43,596 nt of DNA. Source: Deltaproteobacteria bacterium (GTDB taxonomy: Bacteria; Desulfobacterota; Syntrophia; Syntrophales; Smithellaceae). The position numbers were made by a program, and so were the translations under genes. Under the pieces are notes generated by a model that did no database searches, was not told the DNA's origin, and saw nothing but the letters and a program-made list of their open reading frames with translations. Each line of letters starts with the position of its first letter. The first letter of the stretch is position 1. Where the stretch lies: positions 1 through 43,596 of the forward strand of contig JAAYDW010000060.1 in assembly GCA_012729055.1 (NCBI GenBank), read 5' to 3'. Shown piece after piece: positions 1,112-15,006 of the stretch.

Positions 1112-1203
1112 AGTTGACGGTTCCCCTGGCTTTCGACAACAAAGTTATTTTTTTCCAACGCAAACGGCGGGAAATGGAACATCGGCAAGCTTTTCCTATG
1201 CAA

Positions 1204-1545
1204 TCATTTTATCCCTTTGATGTCAAAGGGACATTGTTTTTTGATCAATGTCGCTTCCCCATCAAATTTCTCGCTTTCCCTTTTATCGCTTTTTTGCACA
1301 ATGTTGGCCAGCCGCAGCATCTCAAAGGAAACCTGCACCGCTTTGAAGGCAGTGGCTTTTTTGCCGATTCGAAAGATCTGAATGATTCTGATAGTATCGC
1401 CCTGCCGGACCGCATTGACAACATCCTATCCTTCAATCACGTGACCGAAGACCGTATGCTTGCCGTCCAGCCAGGGTGTCCTGGTATGTGTAATGAAAAA
1501 CTGAGATTCGTTGGTGTCCGAACCGGCATTGGCCATGGATAATAC
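1204..1545 (-). pseudogene. Peptidyl-prolyl cis-trans isomerase (cyclophilin) remnant
   Basis: Starting at the ATG at 1536 the minus strand reads [17 protein letters not shown], then [17 protein letters not shown], the C-terminal half of the cyclophilin fold. In active enzymes this half carries the MANAGxxxNxSQFFIT and [10 protein letters not shown] signatures. The frame is broken by a TAG at 1426-1428 where a Gln codon is usual (EG-Q-DVV). It then continues without a shift through DVVNAVRQGDTIRIIQI to a TGA at 1204. The N-terminal half of the fold is absent because tatA ends immediately upstream. The gene has thus lost its front and carries a nonsense codon. It was probably the last member of the flavoprotein cassette. 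Confidence 0.72.
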
Positions 1546-1547
1546 TG

Positions 1548-1733
1548 TTACCTTTCCTTATCGGATATCTCCGTGGGCTTGCGGGGAGAGTCTCCGTCGT
1601 CTGAAACGTTTTGCTTGAAGTTGTGAATTCCTTTGCCCAAAGCGGACCCGATTTGCGGCAGCTTTCCCACACCGAAGATAATCAGAATGATGACCAGGAT
1701 AATGAGTAGTTCCGGTACGCCTATTCCAAACAT
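1548..1733 (-). CDS. tatA: Twin-arginine translocase subunit TatA (copy 1)
   Basis: This 61-residue protein has a short periplasmic start (MFGIGVPE), one transmembrane helix ([21 protein letters not shown]) that includes the FGxGKLP hinge, and an amphipathic helix ([12 protein letters not shown]), followed by a charged tail. TatA multimerises to pass folded proteins through the inner membrane. It is nearly identical in its first 40 residues to the second copy at 10755-10940. It lies downstream of a Tat-signal flavoprotein in the same orientation, so it probably serves that cargo. An AGGGAGGCAATCTT leader precedes the ATG. No tatC is present in the window. Confidence 0.93.
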
Positions 1734-1801: not shown

Positions 1802-2056
1802 TTACAGCGCGTGACAGAACTGGCATTCCAGCTTTGTCTTCCCTGCCGGAGGAACAATGTGCCCGTTTGCCTAAAACTGTGCCGGTTCGTTCTTTGTCGG
1901 GGTGTAAGCATGAAAAGTCAAACAAGCGACACCTTTGCCTACATCCAAGTGCTTTTGAGGCATCAGTGTCTTGTAGACTTGATGGCATGCGCCACATCAA
2001 GTATCCTTCAACGGCGTTCCGCCATCCTAGACGATAACTGCGAAGATCACACACAT
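1802..2056 (-). pseudogene. Decayed multiheme cytochrome c gene
   Basis: One minus-strand frame shows CGACH (codons at 1982-1996), a damaged CLTFH (1910-1924, second heme Cys replaced by Phe) and CQFCH (1811-1825). Short cytochrome-like linkers such as QVYKTLMPQKHLDVGKG separate them. The frame never shifts but contains three internal stops, just after the putative N-terminal hydrophobic segment, just before the first heme motif, and before ANGHIVPPAGK. It sits between the porin and tatA, the same relative place the intact tetraheme cytochrome holds beside tatA in the second cassette. I read it as a dead electron-transfer subunit of this cassette. The remaining 180 bases up to the porin hold a small hairpin at 2172-2187 and no gene. 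Confidence 0.6.
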
Positions 2057-2237
2057 CAACACAATTCAGCAGATAGAGATGATTTCGGTCTTCCATTTGG
2101 ATATCTTATCATACTCTTTTAGCAGTGCCTATTTTAATAATTCTTGCGTTTACCACCAAGCACGGGACAGCGGGACAAGCATGTCCCTGGCCACGGTATT
2201 TTCTTTAAGAGCCTCTGCTTCAGCGTTGTGTGTAGTC

Positions 2238-3641
2238 CTAGAAGGTCAGCGTCAGTTTGTTGATTACCAGATAATTGTTATTTACCTCGTTAGCTGCGCC
2301 GGCACCTTTGTAATAGTCACCGGTGACGAAGTACCCACCGCCCAGCATGTAAGACAGGCTGGGCGTTATTTTGTAGGTTGCCGTCAAATCCATCTCGTAA
2401 CCATATTCCCGGCTGACCCAAACAGCGGCCGGTGTTTTATCCGCGGTCGCGTAGGATATTGACGCCATAATGTCGAGTTTGTCAATCGGCCGTACACCGG
2501 CTCGAAACTGAGCAAAATAAGCGTTGTTCATGGGAGCGCCATTAGCCGTGGCATTATAACCGGGCTGCGCACCTGCCCAGTAGGCCAGATCATTGTTGAA
2601 CATGATCAGACAAGGATTCCAGTCCCTGCCGCCGCTGGTAATCGGGCTCCCTTCCAGTTTGTCCCTTGTCGCTTGGTCATCGCCAGACATGTAGGCGAGC
2701 GATCCTCCAATGTAGGCGATCCCAAAATCGGCCGTCGCATCAATCCAGGCATTGAGCGCTGAAATGTCGGCATCCTGGCCTCCTGCTGCCGCCGGGTTTC
2801 CTTCCCATTTCTGCTTGCCAAATACGTAACCGATTTCACTTTGCACAAATACCGGGCCGAGCCGAACTTTAGCGTAAGGAGCGACGATGAAATTGTCTGT
2901 CTTAAAGCCTGTGTCGGGTACGATTGCGCCATAAAGATTCCTTGTCGTTGCGTTGCGAATATACTTGCCCAGCATGCAAACTTCACCGGTCTTCCAGTTG
3001 TATCGGACAAAGGCGGTATACAGGCTGCTGTCTTTATCAACATCCGTGACAGGATTCGTTGCGGTGCGACTGCGTTCGCCATCGGCCTGAATTCCGGTCT
3101 GCAAGACAAACGTGAATTGTTCATGTTTGAATGCATAACCCACTTTACCCGCGATTACGGAACTGTCGCCGAATATCGTACCGTAAACGCCGTCGAGCAT
3201 GTAGCCGACCGTAAAAATGCCAATCGGCGACTCATAACGCGCGTATAGCAAGTCAAAGGCGATATTTTCGTTTTCGGCCCGGGTGCCGGCCGACATGGTG
3301 TCAAGCGCATTAAAACCGCCAACGCCTGGATTTGATCTCGCTGTGCCCCAGGCCCTTTCCATGACATCTGCACGGGTAGTCAAGGAAAGACCGGAAGCGA
3401 CAACAAATGTGGTTGTCAGTCGTAGTCTCTGAAAATAAAAGGCAGTACTCCCACCGGCAGGCTGATACACCGGAGGTGGTCCGGGTGTGATCTGATACGT
3501 ATTTTTATTTAAAGTTGTTTTATCCAAGTATAGCCCTGCTGCGTAATACTCACCGCTGAACCTTACATCCACAGCCATTGCCTGCGAACAAAATAATGTT
3601 AGCAGACCAATGCCGGCAAATAGTAACCAATATTTTCTCAT
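2238..3641 (-). CDS. Outer-membrane porin-like beta-barrel protein
   Basis: The protein has 467 residues. I chose the ATG at 3641 because GGAG lies eight bases upstream and a classic signal peptide follows (MRKYWLLFAGIGLLTLFCSQAMA, cleavage before VDVRFSG). The mature part alternates aromatic and polar residues in beta-strand fashion, with long Gly/Asn/Asp-rich loops, and ends in LTLTF. A terminal Phe is the BAM recognition signature of outer-membrane barrels. It follows the FrdB gene after 111 bases containing a hairpin. Its place in the reductase cassette suggests that it admits the substrate to the periplasm. I cannot name the substrate or a specific porin family. Confidence 0.8.
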   Translation of the reverse strand: MRKYWLLFAGIGLLTLFCSQAMAVDVRFSGEYYAAGLYLDKTTLNKNTYQITPGPPPVYQPAGGSTAFYFQRLRLTTTFVVASGLSLTTRADVMERAWGTARSNPGVGGFNALDTMSAGTRAENENIAFDLLYARYESPIGIFTVGYMLDGVYGTIFGDSSVIAGKVGYAFKHEQFTFVLQTGIQADGERSRTATNPVTDVDKDSSLYTAFVRYNWKTGEVCMLGKYIRNATTRNLYGAIVPDTGFKTDNFIVAPYAKVRLGPVFVQSEIGYVFGKQKWEGNPAAAGGQDADISALNAWIDATADFGIAYIGGSLAYMSGDDQATRDKLEGSPITSGGRDWNPCLIMFNNDLAYWAGAQPGYNATANGAPMNNAYFAQFRAGVRPIDKLDIMASISYATADKTPAAVWVSREYGYEMDLTATYKITPSLSYMLGGGYFVTGDYYKGAGAANEVNNNYLVINKLTLTF

Positions 3642-3689
3642 TTTCTGGCTCCGTATCAAACGTTTGGGAGTAGACAATCCATCCGGAAT

Positions 3690-3731
3690 GAAAGCAGGGG
3701 AGTCTTTTCGGTTTAGATCTCCCCTGCTTTC
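3690..3731 (-). terminator. 13-bp perfect hairpin between FrdB-like gene and porin
   Basis: GAAAGCAGGGGAG at 3690-3702 pairs perfectly with CTCCCCTGCTTTC at 3719-3731 across a 16-base loop. There is no T tract on the minus-strand exit side, so it is more likely a partial terminator or an mRNA-processing element that sets the porin level relative to the reductase. Confidence 0.55.
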
Positions 3732-3752
3732 GGTAACAGGAGGCGATTAATC

Positions 3753-4460
3753 TTAAGCTTTTTTGGGTTTTAATCCTCTATCTGTGGCTGCCTTTCTCAA
3801 TTCTGCATAGATCTTTAAATGGTCGATCTCATCTGCCGGGCACGCCTTATTGCACTTGCCGCACATGATGCACTCGAAAAGCCCGTTTTGAACTGCCTCG
3901 GTTACCCGATCCCCCTCATCGTACGGATCGTAATAACGCAGCGCCGTGGAAACAATGCCGGCGGGACCGATAAATTTTTCCTGATCTTTCTTTTCATTAA
4001 TGACAGGACAGGCTGCCACGCAGGACAGGCACCGGCAGCACCATTCGATGGCGCCGATTTTTTTTGCCAGCGCCGGATCGATCGGGGCCAGAATCTTTTC
4101 CCGGTCGGTAATCGGTTTTTCGATGATTCGATTCAATATTCGGCCCATCGCATCGTGGGTCTTGCTCTTGTCTACAATGAAATCGCGGATCACCGGAAAT
4201 CCTCTGAGCGGTTCCAGTAAATTAGCCCGGTTCATGATGTGTGTAAAACAGGCCATTGCCGGTTCGCCGTTGACCATCATGGAGCATCGGCCGCAGACCC
4301 TGCCGCGGCAACTGTAATCAAAACCCACCGGTTCGTGATTCTCATGAATATACGTAATCGCTTCGAGCACCGTCATGTGCTTTTTCCAGGGAACCTCATA
4401 GGTTTTGTTATAAGGCTCGGCGTCTTTCGTCGGATCGTATTTTTTGATAGTAACTTGCAT
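3753..4460 (-). CDS. Fumarate-reductase-type iron-sulfur subunit (FrdB/SdhB-like)
   Basis: This 235-residue protein transfers electrons to the adjacent flavoprotein. The N-terminal plant-type ferredoxin domain has C51, C56, C59 and C71 (CRGRVCGRC ... MAC) for a [2Fe-2S] cluster. The C-terminal alpha-helical domain has C141-x2-C144-x2-C147-x3-C151-P and C197-x2-C200-x2-C203-x3-C207-P. In E. coli FrdB the second motif has Val at the position of C200 and holds a [3Fe-4S] cluster. The extra Cys here suggests [4Fe-4S]. A strong AGGAGGTGATT precedes the ATG and 17 bases separate it from the flavoprotein gene. It has no signal peptide, and no membrane-anchor gene follows. Confidence 0.9.
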   Translation of the reverse strand: MQVTIKKYDPTKDAEPYNKTYEVPWKKHMTVLEAITYIHENHEPVGFDYSCRGRVCGRCSMMVNGEPAMACFTHIMNRANLLEPLRGFPVIRDFIVDKSKTHDAMGRILNRIIEKPITDREKILAPIDPALAKKIGAIEWCCRCLSCVAACPVINEKKDQEKFIGPAGIVSTALRYYDPYDEGDRVTEAVQNGLFECIMCGKCNKACPADEIDHLKIYAELRKAATDRGLKPKKA

Positions 4461-4477
4461 GATCTAATCACCTCCTT

Positions 4478-6346
4478 CTATTTAAGACCCTTTTCCAGCA
4501 GTTCTTTGACTTTGGCCGGCGGGTATTCCGACCAGACGATCGGCCTTTTTTCCACAGTCATCTTGTCATTGACCTTTTTGACCGCAACGTTACAGAGCCA
4601 CTTGTCGTTATCCATTTTGGGGAAGTCCGTCCGAAAATGTGTGCCTCTGGATTCTTCTCTGAAGAGCGACGATTTGCAATTGGCCAGGGACATATCCATC
4701 ATGAAATAATTTTCAATGGCCTGCTGCCATTCGATATTGTATTGTTTGGTGTCATTACGCAACGCCATCCGGGGCAGGTCGTACTTCTTGATCCGCTCAA
4801 GTTCTTTGATGGCGTCCGCAATCGCTTTGCCGTATTTCATCGGGCCTAACGCTTTGAAACAGGCTCTTTGCATCGCATGTCTGACTTCGTGAGGTGCCAG
4901 CGGTTTGGAAACTTTCTTTGTGCGCAGCGCATGAATCCGATTAAATTCATCATGCACCGGTTTCCAGTTGATCTTTTTGACCTTGGGAGCATTTTCGGCA
5001 TATTTGACGGCATTTCTTGCGGCTATGATCGCGCCGTTTATCGTCCCGCCGCTCGTTGACGGAAAGCGAGCGCCTCTGGTGCCTCCACCGACGCCGAAAT
5101 AAAGCCCCGGGATTTCCGTGGCGCAATTTTCGTCGATGACGGGATGCCCTTCAGATTCATACTGCTCAAGAGCCACTTCCATCATCATTCCTTTTACATC
5201 AATGTCAAATCTCTCTTTGTAAGGTTTGATATTTCGGGAATAGACCTCCCTTTCGAAGAGGCTCTGATAGGCTTTGGGATCCCGCAAATCGAGGTACACA
5301 CCGCCGTTGGGACTGCCTTTGCCCTCCAGGACTCTCTTGGCAATTTCCTGAGAAAACCGTCCCCGGTTCATTTCACTCATGGGAATGTCTCGCAGCCAGT
5401 AGACGCCGTCCTTATCGCATAAATATCGGTACTCCAGGGCGTCGGCAGCAAAACCGCCGTTGCAGGTCGCCGCCAGGCCTTCCGGATAGATATTCATGGC
5501 GTCGTTTTCCACAAATTCCATGTCGATCAGCTTGCAGCCGTGGTTAAGGGCGATAGCATCCAGATCGCCGGTATTATCGGGGCTGTTGATGCTGACCGGC
5601 GCCACGGAGATCCAGCCGTAATTCCAGGGGGCGGGACCGCCGCACCCAATAACGGCTTTTGCCCGGAAAACACGGAACGTGCCTGTGGTGATATTGAGGC
5701 CCATGGCGCCGATGCACTTGCCATCCTGAATAAACAGATCGGTGATCATGGTCCGGTCGACAACTTTGATTCCCTTTTTGACGATTTCATCCTGATCGTG
5801 GCGGCAGTAATAATTGTAAAGCACTTTCGCCCCACCCTTGGGTTTTTCCGGCATGTACATGGTGCCATCGGGATTCCGGAAAAAGGTGGTCATGCCATTG
5901 TTAACCAAATGTTGTTCCATTTTAAGGTCGTTCCAAGTGTCGACGATCTTTCTGCACAGTTTTTGATTAATCATTCCATAGGATGCGTTGATGGCAAAGT
6001 CATAGTAGATTTGCGGATTAGTTATGAATCGGACGATGATACCCCAGTTCATGCCGCCGCCGCCGCTGGCTTTAAACGGCCCTTTGTCCGCAATTAATAC
6101 GTTCGCCCCTTCCGCAAATGATGTCAGGGCCGCATTGATCCCGGCAAGGCCGCTGCCGATTACGAGCACATCCGTGTCATAAACTTCGAAGGTCGGTTCA
6201 CACGCAGATGTTTTCGACGTTGGCTTGGCGAATGCTTCAGTGGCCAGAGGGGGCAGGGTCGTGCTTAAAGCCGCACCTCCCGCAATCAGACCCGCGCCTT
6301 TTAATAGATTTCTACGGGAAATCTGTTTTTTTTCTTTTTCGTCCAT
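4478..6346 (-). CDS. Tat-exported FrdA/SdhA-like FAD-dependent reductase
   Basis: The protein has about 622 residues. The ATG at 6346 was chosen because AAAGGAG lies seven bases upstream. An ATG at 6352 would overlap the Shine-Dalgarno. A twin-arginine signal (SRRNLLKGAG, RR at 11-12, then a hydrophobic stretch and a cleavage region around TEAFA) precedes the FAD-binding domain (DVLVIGSGLAG at about 59-69). Later motifs of the succinate dehydrogenase/fumarate reductase/APS reductase superfamily include MEFVENDAMNIYPEG and the GLYFGVGGGTRGARFPSTSGG loop near the flavin. With FrdB it should form a periplasmic two-subunit reductase of an unsaturated acid. Fumarate, acrylate derivatives and related enoates are candidates, but the sequence does not settle which. 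Confidence 0.88.
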   Translation of the reverse strand: MDEKEKKQISRRNLLKGAGLIAGGAALSTTLPPLATEAFAKPTSKTSACEPTFEVYDTDVLVIGSGLAGINAALTSFAEGANVLIADKGPFKASGGGGMNWGIIVRFITNPQIYYDFAINASYGMINQKLCRKIVDTWNDLKMEQHLVNNGMTTFFRNPDGTMYMPEKPKGGAKVLYNYYCRHDQDEIVKKGIKVVDRTMITDLFIQDGKCIGAMGLNITTGTFRVFRAKAVIGCGGPAPWNYGWISVAPVSINSPDNTGDLDAIALNHGCKLIDMEFVENDAMNIYPEGLAATCNGGFAADALEYRYLCDKDGVYWLRDIPMSEMNRGRFSQEIAKRVLEGKGSPNGGVYLDLRDPKAYQSLFEREVYSRNIKPYKERFDIDVKGMMMEVALEQYESEGHPVIDENCATEIPGLYFGVGGGTRGARFPSTSGGTINGAIIAARNAVKYAENAPKVKKINWKPVHDEFNRIHALRTKKVSKPLAPHEVRHAMQRACFKALGPMKYGKAIADAIKELERIKKYDLPRMALRNDTKQYNIEWQQAIENYFMMDMSLANCKSSLFREESRGTHFRTDFPKMDNDKWLCNVAVKKVNDKMTVEKRPIVWSEYPPAKVKELLEKGLK

Positions 6347-6690: not shown

Positions 6691-6700
6691 TTGTGCAAGG

Positions 6701-6715
6701 GCAAGGGATGTGCCA
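6701..6715 (-). promoter_or_regulatory. Sigma-54 promoter (-24/-12) of the FrdA-FrdB-porin-tatA cassette
   Basis: The minus strand reads TGGCAC-ATCCC-TTGC, an exact match to the TGGCAC-N5-TTGC consensus for RpoN holoenzyme, pointing at the flavoprotein gene. The divergent gene at 6842 encodes a sigma-54 activator, and palindromes lie at enhancer distance behind the promoter. Confidence 0.85.
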
Positions 6716-6768: not shown

Positions 6769-6831
6769 TGAAACAGCTTTGGCAACTGTTTCATTTTGTG
6801 CTATATGTTGCCTGCAAAGAGAAACAAAATG
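6769..6831. promoter_or_regulatory. Palindromic enhancer-like sites between promoter and activator gene
   Basis: TGAAACAG at 6769-6776 and CTGTTTCA at 6786-6793 form a perfect 8-bp inverted repeat around nine bases. CATTTTGT at 6792-6799 pairs with ACAAAATG at 6824-6831. The first palindrome is centred about 90 bases upstream of the predicted sigma-54 start site, the usual place for an activator hexamer. The sites also overlap the activator's own 5' region, so autoregulation is possible. Confidence 0.6.
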
Positions 6832-6841
6832 GGACAACCGA

Positions 6842-8203
6842 ATGGTTAAGTTTGGTCTAAAAGAAGAGCTAAGCGTATTGGAAGTAATCGACAGCATGCC
6901 ATGGTCGGTGACGATTTATGATGCGCAGGGAAAGGTGCTTTTCGTCAATCGCAAACTTTGTGAAAACATAAATGCCAATCTGGAGGACTTTGTTGGAAAA
7001 TCCGCCGATCAACTGGTTGAAGGTGGTTACATTGATAAAGTCATTGTTACACAGGCAATTCAAAAAAGGAAAACTGTTTACGGCATTACCCGTTCAAGAA
7101 CAGGCGTGGAAGGGTTATCCGTATGTCAGCCTGTCGTCAATGACCAGGGTGTCATAAAGTTTTTCGTCGTTTCATCCCCTCTGATGAAGGATTTTCAAGA
7201 TATCCGGGCCACTATAGAAGACCAACAGGCCCGTGAGAAAATTTACATTCGGGAAATCGAATACTTGAGAAATCTGCTGTTCTTGGATCAGGAGGATGTT
7301 TTCGAAAGTTCCAGCATGAAAACCATCCTGCAGACCGTATATAAGATATCGCACATGGACTGCACCGTGCTGATTACGGGTGAATCCGGCACCGGCAAAG
7401 AAGTTGTCGCCAAGATCATCCATAAAAACAGCAATCGTAAAGACGGACCGTTTATCCCTGTCAATATTTCGGCCATTCCGGAAACACTCCTGGAGTCGGA
7501 GCTTTACGGGTATAAAGAAGGTGCCTTCACTGGAGCACTCAGAGGTGGGAAAGCCGGCCTCTTTGAAGTAGCTGAGGGTGGGACCTTGTTTGTGGATGAA
7601 GTGGGCGACATCCCAATAGGTATACAGGTTAAAATCTTACGAGCGATTGACAGCGGAGAAATTACCCGGGTCGGCGATACACGTGCCAGGAAAATGAATG
7701 TTCGAATCATTGCCGCGACCAACCGCAATCTCGAAGAGGACATCAAAAATGGTAGATTCCGTGACGATTTGTACTACAGACTAAATGTCGTTCCTATCAA
7801 GATCAGCCCCCTGCGGGAAAGACCGGAGGACATCTGGCTGCTTGCCTTGCACTTTCTCAAGGGCATTAATGAAAAGTACAAGATGAATAAAAGCTTTTCT
7901 CCTGAAATTCTGGCCGCTCTCAAAACGTATCACTGGCCCGGCAACATTCGCGAGCTACGCAATGTTATCGAACGGCTGGCCATTTTGTCGAATAAAGATG
8001 AAATATTCCCGGATGATTTCAACAATCTCATCGGCATTCCTTCCGCGATCAATCAGCCCTCCGCCACCGCACTCCATGAGTATGACGCGTATGAGCAATC
8101 GCGTATTCTGTCGGCTCTGAAAGAAGCGAACGGCAATAAGAGCAAAGCGGCGAAAATTTTGAGCATGCCAAGATCAACACTGTATCGCAAACTGCACCGC
8201 TAG
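6842..8203 (+). CDS. Sigma-54-dependent transcriptional activator, PAS-AAA+-HTH
   Basis: This bacterial enhancer-binding protein has about 453 residues. An N-terminal PAS sensor spans roughly residues 8-115 (MPWSVTIYDAQGKVLFVN). The AAA+ domain has Walker A GESGTGKE near 180, the sigma-54 contact loop GAFTGA near 227, Walker B GTLFVDEVGD and the R-finger region (FRDDLYYRLNVVPI). A Fis-type HTH ends the protein (NKSKAAKILSMPRSTLYRKL). The start at 6842 (MVKFGLKEE) is preferred. An in-frame ATG at 6779 would add residues encoded inside the palindromes. It almost certainly activates the divergent reductase cassette. The PAS domain may bind the substrate or a cofactor. Confidence 0.92.
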   Translation: MVKFGLKEELSVLEVIDSMPWSVTIYDAQGKVLFVNRKLCENINANLEDFVGKSADQLVEGGYIDKVIVTQAIQKRKTVYGITRSRTGVEGLSVCQPVVNDQGVIKFFVVSSPLMKDFQDIRATIEDQQAREKIYIREIEYLRNLLFLDQEDVFESSSMKTILQTVYKISHMDCTVLITGESGTGKEVVAKIIHKNSNRKDGPFIPVNISAIPETLLESELYGYKEGAFTGALRGGKAGLFEVAEGGTLFVDEVGDIPIGIQVKILRAIDSGEITRVGDTRARKMNVRIIAATNRNLEEDIKNGRFRDDLYYRLNVVPIKISPLRERPEDIWLLALHFLKGINEKYKMNKSFSPEILAALKTYHWPGNIRELRNVIERLAILSNKDEIFPDDFNNLIGIPSAINQPSATALHEYDAYEQSRILSALKEANGNKSKAAKILSMPRSTLYRKLHR

Positions 8204-10754: not shown

Positions 10755-10940
10755 CTACTCTTTTCCGCCGGATATTTCTGCGGTCTTGCGGGAAGCCTCG
10801 CCGGTGTCTGAAACGGTTTTCTTGAAATTGTGGATGCCTTTGCCCAGAGCCGATCCGATTTGCGGCAGCTTTCCCGCGCCGAAGATAACCAGGATGATGA
10901 CCAGGATGATCAGCAATTCCGGTACGCCTATTCCAAACAT
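10755..10940 (-). CDS. tatA: Twin-arginine translocase subunit TatA (copy 2)
   Basis: The 61-residue TatA differs from copy 1 by only a few residues in the first 40, with the same [17 protein letters not shown] helix, the GAGKLPQIG hinge and the [12 protein letters not shown] amphipathic helix. The charged tails differ ([18 protein letters not shown]). AAGGAGAATTT precedes the ATG. It is the last gene of the second cassette, downstream of the cytochrome and a Tat-signal flavoprotein, matching the position of copy 1. Confidence 0.93.
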
Positions 10941-11005
10941 AAATTCTCCTTGCTCTTATGGCGGGGGCGGCAAACCGCCCGCCCCGCCGAACCCTTATTG
11001 TCAAT

Positions 11006-11063
11006 CTCCTCAAGGCCGCAGACGCCGTACGGGGGTAACCTGGTCCGCTGGCGCCTTGAGGAG
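11006..11063 (-). repeat. 11-bp inverted repeat between cytochrome and tatA
   Basis: CTCCTCAAGGC at 11006-11016 pairs with GCCTTGAGGAG at 11053-11063. The intervening 36 bases are GC-rich. A second hairpin, GGGCGG-CAAA-CCGCCC at 10965-10980, lies just before tatA. Neither has a T tract, so they may stabilise or separate the transcripts rather than end them. Confidence 0.45.
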
Positions 11064-11073
11064 ACCGACCTTT

Positions 11074-11532
11074 TCACCGCATTTTGTAATCAAAGTTGTG
11101 GCACTGGCCGCACTGGTTTTCCGATGCTTTGTGGACGTGATGGCAATCCGTGCAATCCGGATAATCCATATGGGCGTTGTGCGGATTGGGCAAGTCCTCC
11201 CGGATCTTCTCGGTTTTTGCCACATTCGGATGACAGCCGGCGCAGATTCCCGCGGCAACCGGCGCCGCCGGTTTTTCTCCGTGGCACCGGGAGCAGGCTA
11301 TGCCGGCTGTCTTATGGCGTTCGCCGAGAAAAGGTCCCGAACTATCCGCCGCCTTTTGTGACCAGGCGGCCGGAGAGGCGGCAAGAAGAAAAAACAGGAT
11401 TACCGCCGCCCGGAGGATTTTTGCAAGGCGCCCTGTTCGTGAAAGCGGGGCGTCGGGCATCCTGCGGATCCTTGCCGCCGGAAGGCGCGCATTCGTTCCC
11501 GTTTTGAAGCCGTCTGCCGGTTGATGCGCCAT
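11074..11532 (-). CDS. Periplasmic tetraheme cytochrome c
   Basis: The protein has 152 residues with four heme-binding motifs in order: CSRCH, CAGCH, CTDCH and CGQCH. A hydrophobic signal segment (ILRAAVILFFLLAASPAAWSQ) precedes them. Size and heme number resemble the cytochrome domain of Shewanella flavocytochrome c3 and the separate cytochrome of methacrylate reductase. The ATG at 11532 follows the flavoprotein stop by a few bases and uses AAGGGTGAT as its ribosome site, so translation is probably coupled. An internal Met at 11460 gives a more typical signal-peptide length. It should hand electrons to the flavoprotein in the periplasm. Confidence 0.9.
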   Translation of the reverse strand: MAHQPADGFKTGTNARLPAARIRRMPDAPLSRTGRLAKILRAAVILFFLLAASPAAWSQKAADSSGPFLGERHKTAGIACSRCHGEKPAAPVAAGICAGCHPNVAKTEKIREDLPNPHNAHMDYPDCTDCHHVHKASENQCGQCHNFDYKMR

Positions 11533-11538
11533 AACCGA

Positions 11539-13221
11539 TCACCCTTTCAGGGCGGCGACTTTTTCGCCGGCCAGCCAGCCGAAGGTATACGCCCGCCCGT
11601 GGCTGATCCCCGTAGCGGTAATGGGGTAGTCGTTGCAGAAAAAATCACCTGAGGCGTTGCCGGCGGCATAGAGCCCGTCAATAGGTTTGCTTTCGGCGTC
11701 GAGCACCTGCAGATCCGTGTTGATCCGCAGCCCGTCCATGGTGACCAGCAGCCCGGCGCCGGTTTTGCAGGCGCCGAAAGGCGGTTTGACGATCGCGGTG
11801 AGTTTTGCCGGATCTTTTCCAAAATCCTCGTCTGCGCCTTTTTGCACCAGTTCGTTGTAACGTTTCACCGTAGCGACGAAAGCGGCCCGGGGAACCTGCA
11901 TTTTGTCGGCCAGCGCCTCGAGCGTGTCGGCCTCAACAATGACGCCTTTGCCTTTGAAATGATCATAGGCTTTGTTGTTCCACAGCGGCGTTTTGACCAT
12001 TTTTTCGCAGACGGTGCCGTGCATTTTGTCTTTATCCTTATCCCAGTTGGCATCCCAGACGGTCCATTTCCAGGCGCCCGGCTGCGCGATGTCCTGATTG
12101 GCGGTGTACCCGAAAGGCGCGTCTTCGTTCGCGTAGCGTTCGCCCAGCAGGTTCACGTACAGGAAAGGCTGGCGCGCGAGATTCACGACGCGGTTTCTGA
12201 AGCCGCCCGGAATTGCGGTAAAGCCGTCCCAGAGCATGGGGCAGTCCGTCTCCTGTTTTATGCCGCCGACCCACATTCCCATGAGAATGCCGTCTCCCGT
12301 GTTGCTGCCTTCCGGATAGCCGTCGCCGGCGATCTTGAGGCAGCGGGGCGAGTATTTTTCAAACATTTCCCTGTTGTTGACGTAGCCTCCCGTGCAGAGG
12401 ATAACGCCCCTGGCGGTATTTACCTGGATGTAGCCGTCGCTTCCTTTGGCCACAAGGCCGGTTACCTTGCCTTTGTTGTTTTTCCGGATCAGCTGGACGG
12501 CCGGTGTTTCATAGAGGATTTCGACGCCCTTTGCCTTGACGTATTTTTCCAGCATGCCGCACAGGGTGAAATTCCAGCCGGGCAGGAACTGAATGGCGGT
12601 GGGAAATTCCGTGTAGGGCCAGTAGGACTTGTTGTCGGTATCCACAAAATACTTGACGCCGGCGGCATCGGCCATGTCGAGGATTTTATCCATGACGCGT
12701 CCGCACTCGTCCAGGTAGAGTTTGATGAGCCGGGCGTTGGACTGATAGGCGCTGAAACGCATCACCTCGGCCATGATCTTGTCTTTCGGGATGTGAATTT
12801 TTTGCGCCTTGTGCAGGCGGTCGTCCACCGATGCATTCCAACCTCCGTGAAAAGTAAAGGTCTTTCGTTTTTCCAGAAGAACGACTTTGGCCCCTTTCTC
12901 GGCGGCGGCGTAAGCGGCGCACAGGCCGGCCAGCCCCGCGCCCAGAACGGCGACGTCAACGGATTTTTTTGTTTTGATCTGGCTTGCGGCAATGGGCGCC
13001 GGCGGCGTGTCGAAAGAGAATTTTTTGCAGTTGGGGGACGCCACACTCTCGGCCGTGGTCGTGGCTAGCGCCATTTTCGGAATGCCGCCGGCAAAGCCGG
13101 CCAGCAATCCCGCGGCTCCGACCGTCAAAGAGCCTTTCAGAAAATTACGTCGTCCCTCGTCGAATGCTTTGCGAGGTGTTGCGTTGTGCTTTTTATTGCG
13201 GGTCTTTTCATTTTCAGTCAT
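11539..13221 (-). CDS. Tat-exported FAD-dependent fumarate/enoate reductase-like flavoprotein
   Basis: The protein has 560 residues from the ATG at 13221, which has AAGGAG seven bases upstream. A twin-arginine signal (GRRNFLKGSL, RR at 24-25) is followed by the FAD-binding motif VDVAVLGAGLAGL near 88-100. The substrate/cap region of the fumarate reductase-urocanate reductase family includes YVNLLGERYANEDAPFG. The C-terminal flavin-binding segment is DGLYAAGNASGDFFCNDYPI. It has no heme motifs itself. With the adjoining tetraheme cytochrome it forms a split flavocytochrome c, as in methacrylate reductase. The likely role is respiratory reduction of an unsaturated acid in the periplasm. The substrate is unknown. 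Confidence 0.88.
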   Translation of the reverse strand: MTENEKTRNKKHNATPRKAFDEGRRNFLKGSLTVGAAGLLAGFAGGIPKMALATTTAESVASPNCKKFSFDTPPAPIAASQIKTKKSVDVAVLGAGLAGLCAAYAAAEKGAKVVLLEKRKTFTFHGGWNASVDDRLHKAQKIHIPKDKIMAEVMRFSAYQSNARLIKLYLDECGRVMDKILDMADAAGVKYFVDTDNKSYWPYTEFPTAIQFLPGWNFTLCGMLEKYVKAKGVEILYETPAVQLIRKNNKGKVTGLVAKGSDGYIQVNTARGVILCTGGYVNNREMFEKYSPRCLKIAGDGYPEGSNTGDGILMGMWVGGIKQETDCPMLWDGFTAIPGGFRNRVVNLARQPFLYVNLLGERYANEDAPFGYTANQDIAQPGAWKWTVWDANWDKDKDKMHGTVCEKMVKTPLWNNKAYDHFKGKGVIVEADTLEALADKMQVPRAAFVATVKRYNELVQKGADEDFGKDPAKLTAIVKPPFGACKTGAGLLVTMDGLRINTDLQVLDAESKPIDGLYAAGNASGDFFCNDYPITATGISHGRAYTFGWLAGEKVAALKG

Positions 13222-13300
13222 AAAAAACTCCTTTCTTATTGGTTGTTTTCCGTCACGATGCATGGGGAGAGTTGCTTCGTGGATGATCAATATCTACTTT

Positions 13301-13315
13301 GCGACAACTGTGCCA
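13301..13315 (-). promoter_or_regulatory. Sigma-54-like promoter of the flavoprotein-cytochrome-tatA cassette
   Basis: The minus strand reads TGGCAC-AGTTG-TCGC, one mismatch in the -12 half (TCGC for TTGC) with the correct spacing, 80 bases upstream of the flavoprotein ATG. The divergent activator gene supports it. Confidence 0.7.
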
Positions 13316-13367
13316 TAATGATGTAGTTAATAAATTCAAACAGATGTGATGGTTATGTCCTGCCGAA

Positions 13368-13427
13368 TATCATATGTGGTAGATATTCAATGCGATATAT
13401 GATACTTTCCTCCCGGTCTATCATATG
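13368..13427. promoter_or_regulatory. Three TATCATAT enhancer-like sites
   Basis: TATCATATG occurs at 13368-13376 and 13419-13427, and its inverse ATATGATA at 13397-13404. They lie roughly 80 to 135 bases upstream of the predicted sigma-54 start and just in front of the activator start codon at 13456. This is the usual spacing for activator binding. They differ in sequence from the palindromes of the first cassette, implying separate activators. Confidence 0.6.
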
Positions 13428-13455
13428 CCGTACTTTAATGGCTGCTGGAGGCGGG

Positions 13456-15006
13456 ATGGAAACTCACGAACTGGATTTCTTCAACCAGGCGGCGCTGCGC
13501 ATTTGCAGCAGCCTGGATATCGGCGAGGTGGCCCAGGCCTGCCTGGATTACCTGAAGCATTATATTCCGCTCGACGGCGTCATGATGAGTTACTACGATG
13601 AAAAAAACAACGCTTTCGTCATCATGGCCGTGAAGTCGGCCATTCCTCTGGATACCCGGAACAAAACGATTTCCATGCCTCCGGAAACGCCGAAACTGCT
13701 GAAAAGAGTCAAGAACACCGTCCGGATTTTCAACAAAACCGAGGAGTATCTGATCCCCTTCACCATCTGGAAAACTCTGGGGCAGGTCGAGAAGTCAAGC
13801 CTGGTGCTGTTTGCGGGCTTCAAGGAGCAGCGGTTGGGACAGATCGATTTCTTCGTGCGCGGGCGCGATCGTTACACGGAGGAGCATGCCCATCTCATCG
13901 ATCTTCTCTACAGTCCTTTCTGCATCGCCATGGCCAACAGTCTTCAGTACCAGGAAATCGTGAACATCAAGGACCTGTTTGATCACGATATCCGGCGGCT
14001 GCGCCGTGAGCTGAAACAGACGTCCGATACGGAAATTATCGGGTCGGGGAGCGGCCTGCGGCCGATTATGGAAACCGTGTCCCATGTCGCTTTGCTGACC
14101 ACGCCGGTCCTTCTCCTGGGTGAAACCGGGGTCGGCAAGGAGATCATCGCCAATCGGATCCACTATTCCTCACCGCGGAAAGACGGCCCGCTTGTTAAAA
14201 TCAACTGCGGCGCTATTCCTGATGGGCTCATCGACAGCGAACTGTTCGGCCACGAAAAGGGCGCTTTTACCGGGGCGGTTGCCCGCCAGTACGGCCGCTT
14301 CGAGCGCGCCCACCAGGGCACCATCTTTCTGGATGAAGTGGGCGATCTGCCGACGTCCGTCCAGTCCCGGCTCCTGCGGGTGCTGCAGGAAAAGGAAATC
14401 GACCGGGTCGGCGGAAACAAGCCGGTCCGGGTGGATGTGCGAGTGATTGCCGCCACGCACCGGAATCTGGAGGAACTGGTCCGCGACGGCGTTTTCAGGG
14501 AAGACCTCTGGTTTCGCCTCAACGTCTTTCCTATCCATATTCCGCCGCTTCGCGAAAGGAAAACCGACATTCCCATGCTCGTCCATCACTTCATCATGAA
14601 CAAATCCGAGGAACTGAATCTGCGCATCAATCCGGAACTGGCGCCGGGAGCCATGGAGCGCCTGATGGCTTACGACTGGCCGGGAAACGTGCGCGAATTG
14701 CAAAACGTCGTGGAACGGGCGCTGATCCGGATGCGCATTACCGATCCGTCGCGGCCGATTGATTTCGATGAAATCGCACCGCTTCCGGACGTGCGGCAAG
14801 GGCATCGCCTGCCGGAGACGGGGAAATCCTTTCTTTCTCTTGACGAGGCCACAAGGCAGCATATCGAGGCGGCGCTCGACAGAACCGGGGGGAGAATTCA
14901 GGGGGAGGAGGGCGCGGCCCGGCTTTTGAAAATCAACGCCAACACGCTCCGGCACCGGATGCGCCTCCTGGGAATTCCGTATGGAAGACAGCGCAAAGGA
15001 CCCTGA
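13456..15006 (+). CDS. Sigma-54-dependent transcriptional activator, GAF-AAA+-HTH
   Basis: The protein has 516 residues, starting at METHELDFFNQ with GGAGGCGGG directly upstream. An upstream in-frame ATG at 13390 would run through the repeat sites and is unlikely. A GAF-like sensor fills roughly the first 175 residues. The AAA+ domain has Walker A GETGVGKE near 222, GAFTGA near 268, Walker B GTIFLDEVGD and WFRLNVFPI. The C-terminal HTH (GAARLLKINANTLRHRMRLLG) is Fis-like. It should control the divergent flavoprotein cassette. Its sensor type (GAF) differs from the PAS sensor of the first activator, so the two cassettes probably respond to different signals. Confidence 0.9.
   Translation: METHELDFFNQAALRICSSLDIGEVAQACLDYLKHYIPLDGVMMSYYDEKNNAFVIMAVKSAIPLDTRNKTISMPPETPKLLKRVKNTVRIFNKTEEYLIPFTIWKTLGQVEKSSLVLFAGFKEQRLGQIDFFVRGRDRYTEEHAHLIDLLYSPFCIAMANSLQYQEIVNIKDLFDHDIRRLRRELKQTSDTEIIGSGSGLRPIMETVSHVALLTTPVLLLGETGVGKEIIANRIHYSSPRKDGPLVKINCGAIPDGLIDSELFGHEKGAFTGAVARQYGRFERAHQGTIFLDEVGDLPTSVQSRLLRVLQEKEIDRVGGNKPVRVDVRVIAATHRNLEELVRDGVFREDLWFRLNVFPIHIPPLRERKTDIPMLVHHFIMNKSEELNLRINPELAPGAMERLMAYDWPGNVRELQNVVERALIRMRITDPSRPIDFDEIAPLPDVRQGHRLPETGKSFLSLDEATRQHIEAALDRTGGRIQGEEGAARLLKINANTLRHRMRLLGIPYGRQRKGP

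Follow-up and report, generated by a model that had tools for sequence, protein, structure and literature searches.

One of the closest described systems to the locus treated here is Mfr (SdhABE), found in Wolinella succinogenes and Campylobacter jejuni, from which the export of such an enzyme through the twin-arginine translocation (Tat) pathway is already known (PMC2680327). According to that report, the hydrophilic subunits of W. succinogenes Mfr are exported via Tat; about 60% of the activity is soluble in the periplasm, and about 4% after a change of the twin-arginine (RR) motif of SdhA. The locus in question is a pair of genes, frdA and frdB, in a 43,596-nucleotide stretch of DNA (the window; contig JAAYDW010000060.1) from a deltaproteobacterium of the family Smithellaceae. 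An earlier note on this DNA had compared the pair with Wolinella Mfr, and the comparison is right in substance (PMC2680327). Both flavoproteins carry a Tat signal and lack the histidine that links flavin adenine dinucleotide (FAD), and both iron–sulfur subunits have a second 4Fe-4S motif, as has been inferred for Mfr SdhB in the same report. Mfr has an anchor gene, SdhE, whereas none stands beside the window pair; furthermore, the window FrdA and FrdB fall far below the cut-offs of the Mfr models, and the fumarate pocket of the window protein is altered.

With complex II (SdhABCD/FrdABCD) the pair shares the Pfam families FAD_binding_2 and Succ_DH_flav_C in FrdA and Fer2_3 in FrdB, all above cut-off, and FrdB also exceeds the cut-off of the broad TIGR00384 model (151 bits, cut-off 88). 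The pair differs in lacking the FAD-linking histidine and a neighbouring anchor gene, in its Tat tag and altered pocket, and in a 4Fe-4S motif in FrdB instead of the 3Fe-4S one. TfrAB, the thiol:fumarate reductase of methanogens, is an anchorless, cytoplasmic enzyme and is not known to be exported through Tat. It gives the best NCBIfam scores for both window subunits, but these lie far below cut-off (TfrA 152.9 of 718 bits, TfrB 165.1 of 385). The TfrB model has 488 positions, of which FrdB covers the first 221, ending after the ferredoxin part, while the rest matches CCG proteins. In carrying the signal on one partner only, conserved in three of three pairs, FrdAB resembles a Tat hitchhiker complex. 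No report of an anchorless Tat-tagged FrdAB was found in the open-licence PubMed Central literature, among the matches listed.

New here are the Mfr-like export tag without an anchor gene and the rewritten pocket. It is considered probable, on the sequences themselves, that FrdAB is an anchorless enzyme exported by Tat, with FrdB as the hitchhiker, which acts in soluble or peripherally bound form in the periplasm on a substrate that is probably neither fumarate nor succinate. This reading is built on the conservation of the signal, the lack of a neighbouring anchor gene, the changed pocket residues and a separate clade.

Signal and conservation of the FrdAB pair

Both genes lie on the minus strand, 17 nucleotides apart. 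The first, frdA (4478–6346), encodes a Tat-tagged flavoprotein of the FrdA/SdhA superfamily, 622 amino acids long from an ATG at 6346. After the N-terminal MDEKEKKQISRRNLLKGAG come a mildly hydrophobic stretch and a cleavage-like site between AFA and K (read by eye); the start, MDEKEKKQISRRNLLKGAGLIAGGAALSTTLPPLATEAFA, is by eye a textbook twin-arginine signal. The signal takes up approximately residues 1–40, encoded at about 6227–6346. None of the best 25 of 58 matching NCBIfam models comes near its cut-off with FrdA (Mfr, 74.4 of 1100 bits). The second gene, frdB (3753–4460), has a strong Shine–Dalgarno-like sequence ahead of its start and encodes an iron–sulfur protein of the FrdB/SdhB type. 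The 235-residue product opens straight into the ferredoxin domain, with no N-terminal signal or hydrophobic stretch, and matches 4Fe-4S families of Pfam in addition to Fer2_3. TIGR00384 aside, it reaches the cut-off of none of the other 24 among its best 25 NCBIfam models (40 matched), TfrB and Mfr (64.8 of 600 bits) included. FrdB has the 2Fe-2S ligands and two CxxCxxCxxxCP motifs starting near residues 141 and 197, whose pattern implies two 4Fe-4S clusters; in the alignment, the second motif (CIMCGKCN..CP) stands where E. coli has its 3Fe-4S pattern.

A scan with conserved pieces of FrdB gave three loci. Orthologous pairs are present in two of them, JAHIFE010000140.1 (L100; FrdA 50% and FrdB 68% identical to the window proteins) and DYJH01000122.1 of a Desulfonema limicola assembly (L101; 50% and 66%), and not in the third (L102). 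In all three members frdA and frdB are adjacent (9–17 nucleotides apart; 9–12 in L100 and L101) and FrdB is without a signal; no membrane-spanning partner directly follows the pair in L100 or L101. Both orthologous FrdA proteins carry VSRREFL, and S10, R11 and R12 are invariant in the three members. The SRR, the hydrophobic core and the Ala-rich end are kept in each, although the segment diverges elsewhere. As the arrangement of tagged A, untagged B and no anchor recurs in every known member, the layout is conserved and not due to chance. Between L100 and L101, the nonsynonymous (dN) and synonymous (dS) divergence indicates purifying selection on FrdA (dN 0.067, dS 1.0, ratio about 0.07) and on FrdB (dN 0.088, dS 1.9, ratio about 0.05). 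An RR within the first 40 residues occurs in three of the 32 FrdA-type rows of the tree described below, all three in the FrdA clade. None was found in the 28 FrdA/SdhA/NadB-type rows outside it, at least one of which is cut at the N-terminus (row L048); the second flavoprotein of the window has its RR beyond residue 40.

FrdB is the sole protein of Fer2_3, the SdhB/FrdB 2Fe-2S family, in its own genome, so that FrdA is left without an alternative partner of that kind. With the signal on FrdA and its absence from FrdB in all three pairs, this single partner and the presence of TatC, co-export of FrdB would be the simplest reading. The observations of the earlier note were confirmed: the twin-arginine signal of FrdA, the unsignalled FrdB, and the lack of a membrane-anchor gene after frdB, where a porin-like gene, a dead cytochrome and tatA stand instead. 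Its interpretation is partly supported, in that the proposed passage of FrdB through Tat together with FrdA remains the simplest explanation of the conserved one-sided signal.

The wider searches used overlapping genome sets, the class set being of the same size as the order set. FrdA matched 12 of 99 relatives at E ≤ 1e-20, the own genome included and no ortholog among them, with none of the 19 same-genus genomes matched. In the phylum it matched eight of 395 genomes at 1e-40, the own genome included and the other seven 28–33% identical. The own genome alone was found among 155 of the order at 1e-50 and, using a profile from the three-row alignment, among 155 of the class at 1e-80. Full FrdA against genome contigs gave 34 pattern-matching stretches, none a relative, and its 122 plasmid records were all below 60% identity (the 15 listed, 25.5–28.0%). 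FrdB matched 59 of the 395 phylum genomes, including its own, with other identities of 31–41%; no ortholog was found among the 12 loci inspected. Six of these (L092, L094–L097 and L099) have small open reading frames (ORFs) with multiple membrane spans beside the pair, as in classical SDH/FRD, and in two (L089 and L098) FrdB is fused to CCG. An anchorless pair without a Tat motif, more distant than the orthologs, is found in L093. The pair of L067, with a truncated FrdA, shows no anchor beside it; L090 and L091 are either cut or unclear.

Active site and phylogeny of FrdA

The FrdA clade was aligned to E. coli FrdA (gene numbering, about 25% identity). All three members have a gap at the position of the FAD-linking H45, and in all three H233 is replaced by D, E246 by C or Y, and H356 by Y. 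R288 is conserved, T245 is matched by T or S, and the R391 column, in a stretch that aligns poorly, has R or K. H233, E246, H356 and R288 are taken here to bind the dicarboxylate in E. coli FrdA, with R288 presumably the proton-donating arginine. In a maximum-likelihood tree of the 32 rows, which include E. coli SdhA and FrdA and no Mfr sequence, the three members group together as a separate clade (100/100), with a stem 1.59 changes per column long. This clade falls outside a well-supported group with E. coli SdhA and FrdA.

Since the pocket residues are replaced and the clade is separate, the name “fumarate reductase” is unsupported, and with it the function assumed by the earlier note. To judge from these replacements, the substrate is probably another compound than fumarate or succinate. 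Non-covalent FAD would fit a reductase, as Mfr, in which FAD is also non-covalent, reportedly does not oxidize succinate (PMC2680327). By this analogy, electrons may flow in the reductive direction.

Neighbouring genes, electron partners and export machinery

The next same-strand gene after frdB is an outer-membrane porin-like gene (2238–3677, minus strand) with an N-terminal signal by eye. Its product matches DESULF_POR1 weakly (E 5.1e-8, 32 bits, cut-off 250), and its order and strand would place it in the frdAB operon. A strong stem-loop (3690–3731, minus strand) without a clear T-run after it lies between the two genes. The 91-nucleotide stretch with the stem-loop folds at −33.9 kcal/mol (z −4.59), and none of 200 shuffles was equally stable; the structure is possibly an mRNA processing, stabilizing or attenuation element. 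The porin gene separates frdB from the dead c-type cytochrome (about 1804–2128, minus strand), which is thus not directly 3′ of frdB. A single frame holds its haem motifs (CGACH at 1996 and CQFCH at 1825, with CLTFH between) and its stops (2068, 2029, 1999, 1873 and 1804); with X for the stops, it matches Cytochrom_c3_2 weakly (E 0.056). It is followed by tatA (1548–1733, minus strand; 61 amino acids, Pfam TatA_B_E 61.7 bits). None of these genes 3′ of frdB has the look of SdhC/D, FrdC/D or SdhE. A broken fragment (1112–1530, minus strand), with a motif suggestive of a cyclophilin-type peptidyl-prolyl isomerase, adjoins tatA and the dead cytochrome in a patch of gene decay.

Divergent from frdA, a PAS/sigma-54 activator (6779–8203, plus strand; Sigma54_activat and HTH_8) is, from its placement, the likely regulator of the frdAB unit. 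Its best NCBIfam match is PrdR, below cut-off. Between the two genes lies a sigma-54-like −24/−12 site, TGGCACATCCCTTGCC (6700–6715, minus strand). The long sigma-54 pattern with up to two mismatches occurs at six sites in the window against a mean of 6.4 in 20 mononucleotide shuffles, a count not above chance; the position of the site at 6715 alone is suggestive.

A parallel second unit spans positions 10755–15006. It consists of a VprA/flavocytochrome-like Tat flavoprotein (11539–13290, minus strand), a live four-haem cytochrome (11074–11532, minus strand), a second tatA (10755–10940, minus strand) and a divergent ORF (13390–15006), presumably sigma-54 activator-like from the look of its sequence, with a near-consensus −24/−12 site at 13315. 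This VprA-type or flavocytochrome c unit (10.7–13.3 kb) resembles the frdAB unit in combining a Tat flavoprotein, cytochrome c and tatA genes and a divergent sigma-54 activator. It differs in having a single flavoprotein subunit, from another flavoprotein subfamily, and no Fe-S subunit. The dead cytochrome was considered as a copy of the live one, which is unsupported; clear likeness exists only between the adjoining tatA genes, whose products are 95% alike over the first 37 residues.

The genome encodes one TatC and four TatA/B-type proteins, the genes for the latter being the two window tatA, which both belong to gene strings containing a Tat-tagged flavoprotein, a third at C25 and a fourth adjoining tatC. 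Three TatA genes are very similar (window 1548–1733 and 10755–10940, genome C25:16522–16674) and may, from this likeness, be dedicated or duplicated export parts. The Tat-tagged relative MfrA of C. jejuni can reportedly use either of two TatA paralogues (PMC4148689). Several Tat-tagged single FAD_binding_2 proteins are encoded on C68, C105 and C51 of the own genome. The stretches examined there list no ORF with CxxCH, and these proteins are possibly a set of periplasmic flavin reductases.

Anchor families were searched in the genome as a whole. Sdh_cyt had no match there, with the FrdC and FrdD families (PF02300/PF02313) outside this search. The CCG domain gave 13 matches in seven ORFs, none beside frdAB. 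These are HdrB-like (282 amino acids) and HdrD-like ORFs on C77, an LdhH/LutA-like ORF, GlpC, a membrane Fe-S protein beside ETF-like genes, a GlcF/TfrB-like ORF beside a GlcD-like gene, and one without an NCBIfam match at 1e-10; the names of neighbouring genes are presumed from the look of their sequences. GlpC alone is above an NCBIfam cut-off. An MfrE/SdhE-like gene elsewhere in the genome was looked for, as the earlier note had proposed, and the best candidate is the 282-residue protein of C77. It scores 161 bits for MFR_anch_SdhE (cut-off 500) against 157 for HdrB (cut-off 345) and sits in an apparent Hdr cluster with HdrA-like and other Hdr-type ORFs. Below both cut-offs and with near-equal scores, it is poor evidence for an Mfr anchor, and a dedicated SdhE elsewhere in the genome is unsupported.

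A 290-residue CCG gene starts 15 nucleotides after frdB in L101 (CCG E 1.8e-13), whereas the pairs of L100 and the window lack such a neighbour. The L101 protein has weak local similarity to the seven CCG proteins of the window's genome (best E 1e-4, 20% identity). That genome also has three matches of the NapC/NrfH type, one above cut-off (38.7 bits). The latter has a four-haem, NrfA-like ORF as its neighbour and is therefore probably NrfH. No CxxCH motif occurs in the listed genes around the L100 (18.3 kb) and L101 (11.2 kb) pairs; a six-frame scan down to 40 amino acids found one, in a 70-residue stretch antisense to L100 frdB. With no haem-motif gene beside either orthologous pair, the window's dead cytochrome does not count as a conserved neighbour, which speaks against its earlier designation as a fitting donor. 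The companion claim, that the donor must be a soluble carrier, was too strong in view of the L101 CCG gene and the NrfH/NapC-type cytochrome of the own genome. Two similar ORFs of 350–360 amino acids (L101:227–1306 and 3625–4686) lie beside SDR genes near the L101 pair, the latter without a Pfam match at 1e-3.

Proposed mechanism and rival explanations

The frdA and frdB genes would encode a two-subunit oxidoreductase of SdhAB/FrdAB architecture. FrdA, with non-covalent FAD, and FrdB, with one 2Fe-2S and two 4Fe-4S clusters, would be loaded with cofactors and assembled in the cytoplasm. The complex would then pass through Tat on the FrdA signal, FrdB being the hitchhiker, to become a soluble or peripherally bound periplasmic enzyme. 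Electrons would be exchanged via FrdB with a redox partner encoded elsewhere, possibly a multihaem cytochrome, and the non-fumarate substrate is perhaps sensed by the divergent sigma-54 activator. Export, the complex, the cofactor state, the direction of electron flow, the partner and the class of substrate are thus all projected from the sequences.

Several points weigh against this scheme. The match of Pfam TAT_signal to FrdA residues 8–27 (E 6.5e-4) reaches 20.0 bits, against a curated cut-off of 22.7. AlphaFold on the three-row FrdA alignment gave no usable model (mean predicted local distance difference test score, pLDDT, 34.8). At roughly 25% identity, parts of the pocket alignment are uncertain, among them the R391 column. 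Three members are known, two of them from metagenome assemblies, and no FrdA ortholog was found in the samples of the window's own genus, order or phylum. The genes beside the orthologs (SDRs, an aldehyde dehydrogenase, AOR and UROD) look cytoplasmic, which would not be expected of a periplasmic pathway. In L101, one of the three members, the CCG gene also makes a third, Mfr-like subunit possible.

This last point leads to an Mfr-like enzyme of three subunits, in which an SdhE/HdrB-like (CCG) subunit, encoded elsewhere or lost in the window organism, would be the docking site of the exported pair and hand on electrons from the quinol pool. The Tat signal on A, the missing FAD-linking histidine and the second 4Fe-4S motif in B are shared with Mfr (PMC2680327), and the L101 gene so close to frdB and the 161-bit match of the C77 protein agree with such an arrangement. 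It is nevertheless unlikely: the C77 match is far under its cut-off, with an almost equal HdrB score and neighbours presumed to be of Hdr type, the L101 protein is only weakly like the own CCG proteins, a CCG gene next to the pair is lacking in both L100 and the window, and FrdA and FrdB reach 74 of 1100 and 65 of 600 bits with the Mfr models.

A soluble cytoplasmic enzyme, in which the RR is a relic or belongs to a cytoplasmic N-terminal extension and the pair, in the manner of TfrAB-type or other anchorless FrdAB enzymes, works for dehydrogenases of the cytoplasm, would account for the neighbours of the orthologs and for the best family scores, those of TfrA and TfrB, presumably cytoplasmic enzymes. 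The more distant L093 pair is of this kind in having neither a Tat motif nor a neighbouring anchor ORF. The SRR, hydrophobic core and Ala-rich end kept in three diverging segments make this quite improbable, as do the tatA in the same gene string and the lack of an early RR in the 28 rows outside the clade, at least one being cut at the N-terminus. Hardly credible is the reading of the earlier note, a true periplasmic fumarate reductase, an anchorless Mfr fed by a soluble cytochrome. Its superfamily, its Fe-S chain and the kept R288 would suit that role, but none of the three members has kept the FAD-linking residue or, in the pocket, H233, E246 and H356, the clade is separate, and the cytochrome is dead here with none seen beside the orthologs.

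The chances are about even that the three members represent a new family of the complex II superfamily, namely Tat-exported anchorless two-subunit flavin/Fe-S oxidoreductases that act on a non-dicarboxylate substrate and exchange electrons directly with periplasmic carriers. If so, they would stand beside the flavocytochrome-type periplasmic reductases as a counterpart wired by Fe-S clusters. The annotation “fumarate reductase” would mislead for this clade. The pair is also a clean test case for hitchhiker export in which the cargo is an Fe-S protein. Relatives of complex II are normally wired to the membrane, and a conserved, exported anchorless pair whose active site is rewritten would add to the range of respiratory enzymes in the periplasm.

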